A stretch of 64,000 nt of DNA, from assembly GCA_031272075.1 (NCBI GenBank), contig JAISUK010000047.1:1-64000 (forward strand), given 5' to 3'. This document shows, one piece after another, positions 1 to 4,000 of the stretch (position 1 is the stretch's first letter; each line of letters starts with the position of its first letter). Source of the DNA: Dysgonamonadaceae bacterium. GTDB taxonomy: Bacteria; Bacteroidota; Bacteroidia; Bacteroidales; Azobacteroidaceae. The notes below the pieces were generated by a model. It worked only from the letters and a program-made list of their open reading frames with translations. It had not been told where the DNA came from and searched no databases. The position numbers and the translations under genes are program-made.

Positions 1-315
1 CTGTTTGAACAGGTAATGTTTTCGACTGACATCATAAATCTCATTCGGGTCAGGTTCAATATGCAATAGGGATTTTTCATTGCAAAAGTGGGTGACGGTT
101 ACGGCCGAGTCGCCTTTCTGAAGATACATCACCCCGCTTAATGTTCCTGAAAAATCACCCTTGATGGCTTTGTTAAAAACGGAATGAAATCCCATTCCAT
201 CCTTATGATTAGCGGATTCATATTTTATTTGTTGCGCGTTTACTTGAAAGCATGACGCAAGAAACAATATACAAACGAGTACAATTTTCTGTACTTTTAC
301 CAATATAGACTTCAT
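1..315 (-). CDS. Secreted protein of unknown function, truncated by the window edge
   Basis: This gene is not in the ORF track because its stop codon lies outside the window. Reading the minus strand from the ATG at 313-315 gives an open frame of 105 codons running to base 1. It begins with a typical Sec signal peptide: Lys near the start, a hydrophobic run (IVLVCILFLASC) and a likely cleavage site after NAQ. The Cys in FLASCF could also be read as a lipobox, so it may be a lipoprotein. The mature part includes SGTLSGVMYLQKGDSAV, which I do not recognise. It starts 11 nt after the GG-leader L,D-transpeptidase-like gene and is on the same strand, so it is probably the next gene of that operon. 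A periplasmic immunity, inhibitor or accessory role is conceivable, but nothing in the sequence proves it. Confidence 0.6.
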   Translation of the reverse strand, partial: MKSILVKVQKIVLVCILFLASCFQVNAQQIKYESANHKDGMGFHSVFNKAIKGDFSGTLSGVMYLQKGDSAVTVTHFCNEKSLLHIEPDPNEIYDVSRKHYLFKQ

Positions 316-326
316 GACAATAAATT

Positions 327-1130
327 TTAATCCTGAACGGTAATACTGGTAAATGTATGTCCGTAATTTAGCAATTCGGTAAGTTTTGACATGGCTTCAT
401 CCGTAGTGCGTATGCAACCATACGTTGGATGTTCAGGATTATTGCATCTTCCTGAATGAATTCCCATGTACTCTCGAGTAACATTGCTATATACAAAAGT
501 ATTAGCTCTAAATATTCCATATATCCCAAATGAACCTTCGAAAGTATCCTCCGAGTTATTATGTTTTAAAGCAGAATGTTGATCCAGCATCGAATAAGTA
601 CCATTCGGCCATATTCCTTTACTGCGTGAATCAACATTGTTATACGCACTATAAGTACCCAGACAACAGTCTCGTACATAAATACGTATTTGGTGGTCAC
701 TGCGATCGAAAGTGACAGTAAGTTCACCGATATTACTCGGAACTCTATTGCCACAGGCATCGACGTATCCCCAATCCTCTACATAACCTCCTTGCCATTG
801 GGATCTTGAACAAAACAGGTAATATTCATCCCTTGTATAAGGACGGCCGCACGCATAATCAAAAGGATCATATCTACTTCCAAGACTGGAGGCGCTATCA
901 AAAGCGTAGTAACTTCCTGATTCGTAGTATATTCCGTTATCATCATAGTAATAGCCGCAGCCTTCCGAGGTTCTTACCCATATTATATTCATGCCGGAAC
1001 CGGTGGTATAATATCCGTAATCATCCCAATAGTCGCCACCTTTGATGGCGCGTTGTTCACGCTCGTTCAGCGGTATGAAATTCTCCCTCAATGCGCTGAA
1101 ACTCTCTCCAGTTAATTTTTTCTTGTTCAT
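327..1130 (-). CDS. GG-leader exported protein with C-terminal L,D-transpeptidase-like motif
   Basis: The 267-aa protein starts with a charged, amphipathic segment ending in LNEREQRAIKGG (about residues 21-32). That matches the double-glycine leaders of Bacteroidetes peptides cut and exported by C39-peptidase ABC transporters. A Tyr/Asp/Ser/Gly-rich stretch follows (about 33-100), with several Cys. The C-terminal half (about 135-267) looks like a folded domain. It ends with GIHSG...PTYGCIRTTDEAM, which resembles the His...(S/T)xGC(I/V)R signature of YkuD-type L,D-transpeptidases and of DUF2778/Tlde1-type peptidoglycan-targeting effectors; the Cys in YGCIRT would be the nucleophile. Downstream of a LanC-like gene (44 nt gap) and upstream of a secreted protein. 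The combination suggests an exported peptidoglycan-active protein, possibly modified in its Tyr/Ser-rich linker. No C39 transporter is visible in the window. Leader and motif are read directly; enzymatic activity is inferred. Confidence 0.7.
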   Translation of the reverse strand: MNKKKLTGESFSALRENFIPLNEREQRAIKGGDYWDDYGYYTTGSGMNIIWVRTSEGCGYYYDDNGIYYESGSYYAFDSASSLGSRYDPFDYACGRPYTRDEYYLFCSRSQWQGGYVEDWGYVDACGNRVPSNIGELTVTFDRSDHQIRIYVRDCCLGTYSAYNNVDSRSKGIWPNGTYSMLDQHSALKHNNSEDTFEGSFGIYGIFRANTFVYSNVTREYMGIHSGRCNNPEHPTYGCIRTTDEAMSKLTELLNYGHTFTSITVQD

Positions 1131-1173
1131 AATGGTAAAATTTGGTTTAATAAAAAAGTTAAGTTAATTATTA

Positions 1174-2109
1174 TCATTTGCAATTAGCATTTTCATTCAT
1201 GAACAGGAGCATATTCCCGAAACCCGCCAAACCTCTGGAAAAAATGAAATCGCGTTTTGTCAGGCTTTCCTGCTTTAGGTTTATGAAACGTGAAATTGCT
1301 CCCAATGCGATCGCTTCCAGACTGCTATTGCCGAAATAGAGCTCCTCCTGCCAGGATATTTTTATCAAAGTTTCGATATCAAACCCATTTTCCGGTTTCG
1401 TGCGATTCATTAGAAACTTCTTCCAGACTTTATTTTTCTCGAGTTCAAATTCTTTAAGCACGCGTTCAAATATATACAGGTCGGCTTTGTCGAATGTCTG
1501 ATTGGTTTTGTGATTTAATATTTTTTCCAACAGGACTAAAAGATTCTTTTTTATTGAAACAGCTTTCTCCTTGTTGTGCTTGTATTTTTTAATTCGCATG
1601 AGAAAAATCAAAACAGAATTGATATGATAAAGAGAAACCGCATCTTGAAAGATACTCAATCCCTTATCGCATGAGTCCAGACATTCGTCGATGTGTTGAA
1701 TATAATCTACATTGGTCTTGTTATCCTTCAATCGTTCAAGCAGATAAATCCCTTTTCCCAACAAGGATGTATGCGGATTACACTTGTAATCGGAAAAGAT
1801 TTTCTTATCCACGTCCTGTAAGACTTCATTGGAATCTCCATCTACATAACCTTTTCTTATCAAGCAATTTACAACCAAACCTATTCCTGCAAGTCCGTTT
1901 TCAAAACAGGGAGATGTTGTCGCAATAGACCTCAGCACTTTGTCTAACATATCGTCGGCAATCTCGCTGTAATATTTACAATTGGAATAATCGGCATATC
2001 GATACAGAAATAGTATGATCCCCATTTTCCCGTCGTGCAATCCATTGCCGGTTATATGGTAACTGTATAAAACCAGTGTGTTTGCTATTTTTTGTAATTC
2101 ATTTTTCAT
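1174..2109 (-). CDS. LanC-like protein lacking recognisable zinc ligands
   Basis: The 311-aa protein has the spaced Gly-rich helices of the lanthionine synthetase C-like toroid: HDGKMGIILFL (about residues 25-35), ENGLAGIGLVV (about 90), SLLGKGIYLL (about 140), ELYFGNSSLEAIALG (about 258) and SRGLAGFGNML (about 292). In catalytic LanC proteins the last two positions carry the zinc ligands in WCYGxPG and CHGxAG. Here the matching places read LYFGNSS and SRGLAG, so the Cys, Cys and His all appear replaced. The protein is also shorter than typical LanC enzymes (about 400 aa) and stops soon after the last repeat. It is therefore probably not a zinc-dependent cyclase; a scaffold or leader-binding role is more likely. 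It sits 16 nt downstream of the glycosyltransferase gene and 43 nt upstream of the GG-leader gene, so it is part of a maturation operon. Confidence 0.72.
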   Translation of the reverse strand: MKNELQKIANTLVLYSYHITGNGLHDGKMGIILFLYRYADYSNCKYYSEIADDMLDKVLRSIATTSPCFENGLAGIGLVVNCLIRKGYVDGDSNEVLQDVDKKIFSDYKCNPHTSLLGKGIYLLERLKDNKTNVDYIQHIDECLDSCDKGLSIFQDAVSLYHINSVLIFLMRIKKYKHNKEKAVSIKKNLLVLLEKILNHKTNQTFDKADLYIFERVLKEFELEKNKVWKKFLMNRTKPENGFDIETLIKISWQEELYFGNSSLEAIALGAISRFINLKQESLTKRDFIFSRGLAGFGNMLLFMNENANCK

Positions 2110-2125
2110 ACGTCAGTATTTTATT

Positions 2126-4000
2126 TTATTTTATTTTATTGTTTTGTTTTGTCGAGTTGATTACTTGCTTGAAAAAATCAATAATATCCGGTACATGATA
2201 ATCAAAAGTAAATTTCATACGATTCGCTCGTACATTCCGTTCCGTTTCAGCCAGAAGTCCTTTATCTTTCAATTGAGTGACCAATTCCTTCATTGAGTCG
2301 TACAATATACACATTCCGTATTTTTCGACACCGTTGCGCATCGCAACAATATGACCCGTATTCCTTTTCTGTATGATTGGAATTCCGGCAGCCGCCAACG
2401 TGTTGATTCGAGCCGGAATATTCAAATCAAACCATCCGGCGCGCATCAACGAATTTTCATTCAAGCTTTCAAAACAATGCAACCAGCCTGCATCGTATTT
2501 AGAAAATTCTTTGACCCAATCCATTTGAGAGCAATGCGGCTCTACATGAAAATGTCTCGGGGCAAGGTCTCTGAATTGGGAGATGCCCTTTTCTTCATGG
2601 ATGTAAGTTTCATTGTATACATGTAAATGGATATTATTATCTGCCATGATGCGCATATCTTGCGGTCTGATTCCTATGATCCTTCCAATGACTACCGTAT
2701 GCACTGCTCCATCCGATGCCGAAAGTTTTTCGGAAAAATCTCCTTTAAAACAGTCGGCTTTCGGCAAGTCCCCATCCATGATAAAGGTCAAGGCATTATT
2801 GGGGTCGTATGATGTAAATAATTCAAACCATTCTTTTGTTTCTTTATTCAGGTATATTTTACCATCGGAGCGGGAGTATAAATCGATCAGTTTTTCCCAC
2901 AAACCCTGTTTCATCGCACCGTGTGGACTTTCTTTGAAATGCCATACAAAGGGAATCCCCGTATTCGCATTCATTACTTCATGCGCAAAATAAATCGCGC
3001 CTGTATTCAATTGAGCATAAATGATATCCGGTTTAATCTCTTTGAGCCTTTGTCGCCAATTATCGTACGGTACATCTTCCACATTTCCGAATGGGAGCGG
3101 GCCGACGGTACAAAAGCAATATTCCGGTTTCCCCCAAAGACCGTACAACTTGTGACCGGCCTCTTCAAAAGCATACACGCGCTCAGGATTGTAGGCCAGC
3201 TCTCCAACCAACAAAATTTTCAAACTTTCATCTGATAGCGGTCTTTTCAATTTGTAATGACTGTATGCCTTGTATTCATCGATTGTATTATAGTTGGTAG
3301 TTCTCATCCGGACAGGATCTTGGATTTTATAGTAATGTCTGTATTTATTCAATCCTCCCCCCATCTTTTCTCCCATAATTTTATGTCGCTGGCGGGGTTG
3401 ATTGGTCCATTCACAGGTGATTTTGTTTGTTGGAACGAAGAGACCTTTGTCAGTCAATTTTCTCCAGAAGGAATAAAACAAATCATCCGAAACACATTCT
3501 TCGCGCTCTATCCAGCGGTCATCCGTCTTTCTGTGCGCTGTCTGGACTAATTGCAGACAATAATCCGCCTGAACTCCCAGTGCTTTTTTATACATGATAA
3601 GACTGGCTTCGGGAACAACATCTAAACAAAAACCGCTAAAAGCCAACACAATATCTTTTGACTCTTCAAATTTTGATTTTAACGTTTCTAGATGATTGTT
3701 ATAATAAAAGTCGTCGGACGGCAAATATGCAATATATTCGTATTGAGCCATATCGATTCCTTGATTTAGTGCCGCACCCAAGCCTTTGTTGTTCGCGTTT
3801 TTGATATAACGTACAGGATAGTCACATGTGTCAGACAAATATTCAGACAAATATTCTTCTGTTTTATCTGTTGAACCATCATTGATAATGATTAATTCCC
3901 AATTCTTACAGGTTTGTTTGCACAAACTTAAGATAGCTCTTCGAATAAAGCACGCCTGATTAAATACAGGCATAATAACCGAAAAATGTATATTATTCAC
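2126..4000 (-). CDS. Two-domain glycosyltransferase (GT2 plus GT-B fold)
   Basis: The 624-aa protein joins two glycosyltransferase modules. Residues about 5-230 are family GT2 (GT-A fold), with SVIMPVFNQ, the nucleotide-binding NDGSTDKT and the metal-binding SDDFYYN. From about residue 262 (LKILLVGELAYNPERV) to the end the sequence resembles GT-B enzymes (GT4 or CgeB-like), with IKPDIIYAQLN and AAAGIPIIQKRNTGH in the donor half. There is no signal peptide or membrane segment, so it is cytoplasmic. The start is GTG at 3998-4000; the next ATG would cut into the GT2 core, so GTG is preferred. It is the first gene of a run with a LanC-like protein and a GG-leader protein. This context suggests it glycosylates the exported protein or a peptide rather than a polysaccharide, as in glycocin-type maturation. 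That role is inference; the fold assignment is firmer for GT2 than for GT-B. Confidence 0.72.
   Translation of the reverse strand: MNNIHFSVIMPVFNQACFIRRAILSLCKQTCKNWELIIINDGSTDKTEEYLSEYLSDTCDYPVRYIKNANNKGLGAALNQGIDMAQYEYIAYLPSDDFYYNNHLETLKSKFEESKDIVLAFSGFCLDVVPEASLIMYKKALGVQADYCLQLVQTAHRKTDDRWIEREECVSDDLFYSFWRKLTDKGLFVPTNKITCEWTNQPRQRHKIMGEKMGGGLNKYRHYYKIQDPVRMRTTNYNTIDEYKAYSHYKLKRPLSDESLKILLVGELAYNPERVYAFEEAGHKLYGLWGKPEYCFCTVGPLPFGNVEDVPYDNWRQRLKEIKPDIIYAQLNTGAIYFAHEVMNANTGIPFVWHFKESPHGAMKQGLWEKLIDLYSRSDGKIYLNKETKEWFELFTSYDPNNALTFIMDGDLPKADCFKGDFSEKLSASDGAVHTVVIGRIIGIRPQDMRIMADNNIHLHVYNETYIHEEKGISQFRDLAPRHFHVEPHCSQMDWVKEFSKYDAGWLHCFESLNENSLMRAGWFDLNIPARINTLAAAGIPIIQKRNTGHIVAMRNGVEKYGMCILYDSMKELVTQLKDKGLLAETERNVRANRMKFTFDYHVPDIIDFFKQVINSTKQNNKIK

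Follow-up and report, generated by a model that had tools for sequence, protein, structure and literature searches.

The left end of the window, by which we mean the whole stretch of 64,000 nucleotides that opens contig C52 (bases 1-64000) of a Dysgonamonadaceae bacterium (3.02 Mb assembly, 94 contigs, 93% complete), carries four head-to-tail open reading frames (ORFs) on the minus strand, and comparison with relatives makes it likely that they belong to a polymorphic-toxin system aimed at other bacteria, with a type I secretion system that cleaves the leader as its exporter. Gene 1 (2126-4000) encodes a glycosyltransferase (GT) of 624 residues, gene 2 (1174-2109) a LanC-like protein of 311 residues, gene 3 (327-1130) a predicted toxin of 267 residues that joins a double-glycine (GG) leader to an L,D-transpeptidase-type domain, and gene 4 (1-315) the 5' half of a putative secreted immunity protein, 105 residues long and open at base 1, where the contig end truncates it. 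In that order the genes are separated by 16, 43, and 11 nucleotides. An earlier reading of the DNA, hereafter the original prediction, had described four closely spaced minus-strand genes that combine a two-domain GT, a LanC-like protein devoid of zinc ligands, a GG leader, and a secreted protein; the spacing (11-43 nucleotides) was borne out, and the parts were recovered with Pfam, NCBIfam, and alignment. That base 1 is the end of a contig is something the letters alone do not reveal.

Gene 3, assigned from profiles, homologues, and a fold model, is organized as a leader (residues 1-32, 1035-1130), a tyrosine-rich spacer (residues 33-95, 846-1034), a conserved linker or pretoxin motif (residues 96-133, PYTRDEYY...WQGGYVEDWGYVD, 732-845), and a C-terminal warhead with a predicted L,D-transpeptidase fold (residues 135-267, 330-728). 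The warhead contains the catalytic motif H225-x(10)-T236-Y-G238-C239, followed by I-R241 (414-458), and H225, T236, G238, C239, and R241 are invariant in an alignment of five homologues. Three homologues of gene 3 pass the cut-off of the Pfam family YkuD, and L,D-transpeptidases and their relatives dominate the Foldseek list obtained with an AlphaFold model of gene 3, which is of low confidence (predicted local distance difference test score, pLDDT, 57). By motif, homologues, and Foldseek, the putative peptidoglycan-active domain of the original prediction is therefore of L,D-transpeptidase type; the cell-wall domain had been seen correctly, and what had been overlooked is that it is a known polymorphic-toxin warhead with a probable immunity gene beside it.

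The same warhead is found on different trafficking modules. It forms the C-terminus of a 2928-residue RHS-type protein on Persicobacter plasmid CP012866 (L004) and that of a Prolixibacteraceae RHS protein (L008), it adjoins TssD in Tannerella (L007), and it follows a GG leader in the window and in locus L006. A short homologue also occurs on a Saprospiraceae contig (L009) among neighbors that look type VI-like by eye, and homologues on IMG/VR contigs come after genes that, again by eye, are Hcp-like. The partner gene recurs as well. Gene 4 encodes an N-terminal secretion-signal-like segment and matches no Pfam family; two proteins that are 42-43% identical to its available half flank the toxin at L006, and the gene following the Persicobacter RHS warhead is also a homologue (34% identity, 1e-15, against the L006 protein), so that toxin and immunity homologues are seen together in exchanged settings. 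Because the warhead recurs in RHS and type VI settings with gene 4 homologues adjacent, because its motif is conserved, and because Tox-LD-peptidase and Tlde1 provide precedents, genes 3 and 4 are best read as a polymorphic toxin and its immunity protein, the latter role being probable for gene 4 from its homologues that flank or follow toxins. Type VI cargo was rejected for gene 3 itself because no type VI gene (Hcp, VgrG, PAAR, or other context) is present among the four window genes, which offer a GT, a LanC-like protein, and a GG leader instead.

The leader of gene 3 ends with GG at residues 31-32, and both glycines are kept in the L006 homologue. A profile trained on 14 GG leaders, none of them from the window, was run against the ORFs of the window and of two further regions of its genome; gene 3 came first at 0.014, and the runner-up scored 2.8. 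The spacer that follows is absent from the L006 homologue and contains 13 tyrosines in 63 residues; that it could be a modified region is a guess. The linker motif of 38 residues, built at first from the window and L006 alone and searched in 80 genomes, led to two further GG-leader proteins, at L108 and L109, and it is thus common to four GG-leader proteins, whose C-termini are of three kinds. A linker profile from L006, L103, and L104, with the window left out, matches gene 3 at 6e-11. The linker scan found no relatives in viral contigs. Perhaps it is the linker that makes contact with the surface of the target.

The exporter expected for such a protein is seen in relatives. L006 (Bacteroidia bacterium MS502-39, the same locus as G008:C89) encodes a GG-leader toxin homologue of 214 residues, 47% identical to gene 3, and its TolC, HlyD, and C39-peptidase ATP-binding cassette (ABC) genes are divergent from the two immunity homologues flanking the toxin. 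HlyD proteins of the L006 type (53-74% identical) were found in another six genomes of the family and, among 393 drawn from the order, in one. At L075 (G031), genes for C39-ABC, HlyD, and TolC begin 80 nucleotides after a complete immunity homologue; the last 157 nucleotides of gene 4 before the contig end are 93.6% identical to this copy, and the tail of another, nearly identical immunity gene opens the L075 contig. Such tandem copies would explain the assembly break at base 1, and the synteny with L075 predicts that an exporter lies next beyond it. At L074, in the same genus, C39-ABC is divergent from a GG-leader protein of 171 residues and an erythromycin-esterase-like gene. Altogether, C39-ABC exporters stand beside homologous genes at L006, L075, and L108 and beside similar gene sets at L092, L050, and L071.

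In the own assembly, no match to the C39 peptidase family (PF03412) was found, so that export in the host organism has to be deduced from synteny. One possibility, which we regard as rather unlikely, is that the toxin-immunity pair is real and inactive here, the exporter having been lost, gene 4 being kept for defense, and the GT and LanC-like genes being remnants of a cassette. The missing C39 peptidase would fit such decay, as would a truncated HlyD on another contig and an orphan immunity gene on contig C21. All three complete genes of the window are, however, open and stop-free, and the contig breaks off at an immunity gene that is tandem and prone to repeats, behind which the exporter lies at L075. 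The original prediction had held that absence of any GG-peptidase transporter from the genome would speak against it; none is present in the assembly, which does not decide the matter, since in relatives the transporter is located just where this contig stops. The HlyD in question is an orphan of 280 residues on contig C48 (L076:8547-9389, minus strand), nearest to the HlyD proteins of GG-peptide/TIGR04157 cassettes and with no ABC partner nearby, and is possibly a decayed export cassette. The orphan gene 4 homologue (L099:12569-13237, minus strand) has no adjacent toxin and is divergent from an alpha/beta-hydrolase-like gene.

Intact gene sets elsewhere bear on the same point. L108 (G395), from a third family, contains an operon of HlyD, C39-ABC, TolC, a LanC-like protein, a TIGR04157-type GT4 (2.8e-60, below the family cut-off), and a toxin of 204 residues composed of a GG leader, the linker, and a CHAP/NlpC-like C-terminus (CHAP, 6e-5, just below cut-off). 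A protein of 171 residues with a signal-like N-terminus is encoded 129 nucleotides after the toxin and is a candidate immunity protein; the neighbor of an NlpC/P60 gene in Salmonella resembles it too weakly (43% over 21 residues, E 0.006) to serve as evidence. L092 (G1095), from another family of the order, carries on one strand a GT2, a GT, a GG cargo of 155 residues, an erythromycin-esterase-like protein, a LanC-like protein, C39-ABC, and HlyD. No match to the L092 cargo was found in 305 genomes of the class, and none to the L092, L074, or L104 cargos in plasmids. Many of the comparison genomes are fragmented, and the co-occurrence counts are small for that reason. The original prediction had also staked itself on the genes occurring together in other genomes, and the gene set does recur at L108 and L092. 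These two loci strongly support its view that a large antibacterial protein, not a lanthipeptide, passes through a GG-peptidase transporter; the glycosylation that it ascribed to this protein is still a conjecture.

Gene 1 consists of a Glycos_transf_2 domain (Pfam, 2.3e-33, residues ~7-121 matched) and a C-terminal half with weak GT-B-like matches (Glyco_transf_4, 0.027). Gene 2 matches LANC_like (4.1e-10) and, aligned with LanB-associated LanC proteins, lacks the WCxG and CHG zinc-ligand motifs; its AlphaFold model from the single sequence was poor (pLDDT 47). Relatives of gene 2 are present in 17 other genomes among the 45 searched in the family, and many are located in C39-ABC/HlyD cassettes together with TIGR04157 GTs, radical S-adenosylmethionine proteins (rSAM), pseudo-rSAM, and short GG peptides; like gene 2, this group is without the zinc ligands. 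A GT and a zinc-less LanC-like domain apparently reside in one chain at L013:150-1775 and, judged by eye, at L044:9564-11480. Because of these fusions and the adjacency in many cassettes, the two proteins belong together, and they likely share a modification role. Their module is perhaps not obligatory, because it is absent at L006 in the stretch seen. Nor is it new: a 2023 survey (PMC10352776) described zinc-less LanC sequences, GTs, pseudo-rSAM, and peptidase-containing ABC transporters (PCATs) in Bacteroidales, and the combination of zinc-less LanC-like protein, GT, and GG leader is already known from Bacteroidales clusters for ribosomally synthesized and post-translationally modified peptides (RiPPs).

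These cassettes suggest another explanation, namely that the locus is a Bacteroidales rSAM/GT/LanC-like RiPP cassette in which gene 3 is a long precursor and its L,D-transpeptidase-like part an inert core or follower. Clusters similar to it with a long core are reported in PMC10352776, and the company kept by the LanC-like and TIGR04157 GT genes of relatives agrees with it. We nevertheless consider it improbable, since the four window genes include no rSAM or pseudo-rSAM, the catalytic residues H, T-x-G-C, and R do not vary, and the domain is a warhead elsewhere, paired with an immunity homologue. The pairing argues in a similar way against a self-directed, housekeeping enzyme, by which a GG-leader L,D-transpeptidase would remodel the envelope of the producer and gene 4 would be an unrelated secreted protein. 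L,D-transpeptidases are common cell-wall enzymes, as textbooks have it, but in relatives this domain terminates RHS proteins and serves as a type VI cargo, gene 4 homologues adjoin it in independent contexts, tandem and orphan copies of the immunity homologue exist (L006, L075, C21), and the distribution is sporadic, with the domain in 2 of 45 genomes of the family and in 1 of 395 of the phylum, which is the query genome itself; such a role is therefore highly improbable. A conventional class I lanthipeptide locus, or one resembling it, in which LanC would be the cyclase, to which the LANC_like match and the LanB/LanC loci of the same family (L046, L049) might point, was rejected as extremely improbable because no LanB dehydratase is encoded among the four genes (a genome-wide LanB search was not made), the zinc motifs missing from gene 2 are kept in LanB-associated LanC proteins, and the cargo is an enzyme domain; the original prediction had likewise noted no visible LanB, and none adjoins gene 2.

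Class I lanthipeptide loci are themselves present in this family (L046, L047, L049). L046 encodes a canonical LanC of 415 residues near LanB (Lant_dehydr_N, 2.5e-152) and a GG-type peptide, and L049 looks alike; the LanC proteins of both retain AWCYG and CHG. This contrasts with PMC10352776, in which no LanB was found in the Bacteroidales genomes screened there.

If the polymorphic-toxin reading is adopted, the system can be pictured as follows. Gene 3 would be made in the cytoplasm with its GG leader and would probably be modified before export by the GT and the zinc-less LanC-like protein, the latter acting as a scaffold or leader reader and not as a cyclase. An exporter made up of a C39-peptidase ABC protein, HlyD, and TolC, which would lie off the contig here and is present in relatives, would cut after GG and export the linker and warhead. 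The warhead, presumably a cysteine enzyme of the L,D-transpeptidase/carboxypeptidase type, would attack peptidoglycan stem peptides of competitors after entering them, and the gene 4 product would reach the periplasm to shield the producer. The proposals on export and on the gene set come from comparison of loci, and those on toxicity, immunity, and glycosylation from protein families. A more far-reaching possibility, which we put forward tentatively and hold to be somewhat doubtful, is a distinct class of Bacteroidales weapons, in effect giant glycocins: modular protein bacteriocins in which a GG leader and a conserved linker of ~38 residues precede warheads that can be swapped, and which leave the cell through a PCAT/HlyD/TolC system of their own after glycosylation by a GT, with the LanC fold as leader or substrate scaffold.

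Several observations weigh against the polymorphic-toxin reading. The own assembly is without a PF03412 peptidase, and its sole HlyD is the truncated orphan. L006 shows no GT or LanC-like gene in the stretch available. The Pfam scores of gene 3 for L,D-transpeptidase families (Tlde1_dom, 7e-4; YkuD, 0.013) are both under cut-off, its leader matches the Bacteroidetes GG-leader domain TIGR04149 of NCBIfam at 0.0048, again below cut-off, and confidence in its fold model is low. The L092 and L074 cargos have no linker and end in regions without a match to any toxin family; they back the gene set and not the linker. Finally, no mechanism for crossing the outer membrane of the target is visible.

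Tox-LD-peptidase is known as a polymorphic-toxin domain delivered by the type II (T2SS), type VI (T6SS), and TcdB/TcaC routes (Zhang et al. 2012, PMC3482391), and the type VI effector Tlde1 shortens tetrapeptides and swaps the terminal D-alanine (PMC9638812). Gene 3 shares with them the L,D-transpeptidase/carboxypeptidase fold, the conserved H and GC motif, the C-terminal position, the adjacent immunity gene, and, presumably, the peptidoglycan target. The carrier differs, being a short GG leader and linker with a C39-ABC type I exporter instead of T2SS, T6SS, or TcdB/TcaC, and the H-to-T spacing is 10 residues in gene 3 compared with 14-17 in Tlde1 (PMC9638812). With the Bacteroidales GG cassettes (PMC10352776; NCBIfam TIGR04149/4150/4157), the locus has in common a zinc-less LanC-like protein beside a GT, a GG leader, and, from relatives, the PCAT/HlyD exporter; in contrast to those with rSAM (e.g., L033, L036), it shows neither rSAM nor pseudo-rSAM, its precursor has 267 residues and is not a short peptide, and the cargo is a predicted enzyme toxin of ~20-30 kDa with an immunity protein. 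Bacteroidetocins (PMC6671954) and class II bacteriocins of the colicin V type (PMC10352776) resemble it in the GG leader, in the PCAT exporter as seen in its relatives, and in antagonism, the last being supposed here, but are small peptides, whereas gene 3 encodes a protein built of modules, whose catalytic domain can be exchanged. As regards glycocin-like bacteriocins, the window shows the GT gene, from which a glycan on the product may be surmised.

The toxin domain, the cassettes of zinc-less LanC-like proteins, GTs, and GG leaders, and GG export are thus each known. In the open-access papers searched, neither their combination nor any account of polymorphic toxins with a GG leader came to light, most subscription-journal papers and bioRxiv preprints lying outside the search. 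If the proposed system is real, leader-cleaving type I secretion would be added to the trafficking routes of polymorphic toxins, and GG export cassettes of the RiPP type would be joined with effector-immunity warfare. The zinc-less LanC-like proteins and GTs of many Bacteroidales GG cassettes, so far without a function, may then modify protein cargo, and the linker would provide a search handle for further toxins of this kind.

The GG-leader protein of 171 residues at L074 (3486-4001) has no Pfam match and shows, by eye, a C...H arrangement that hints at a papain-like fold. Secreted erythromycin-esterase-like proteins (PF05139) adjoin GG-leader cargo genes at three loci, L074, L092, and L109, the linker protein of L109 sitting between two such genes, and perhaps play a role in modification or immunity.

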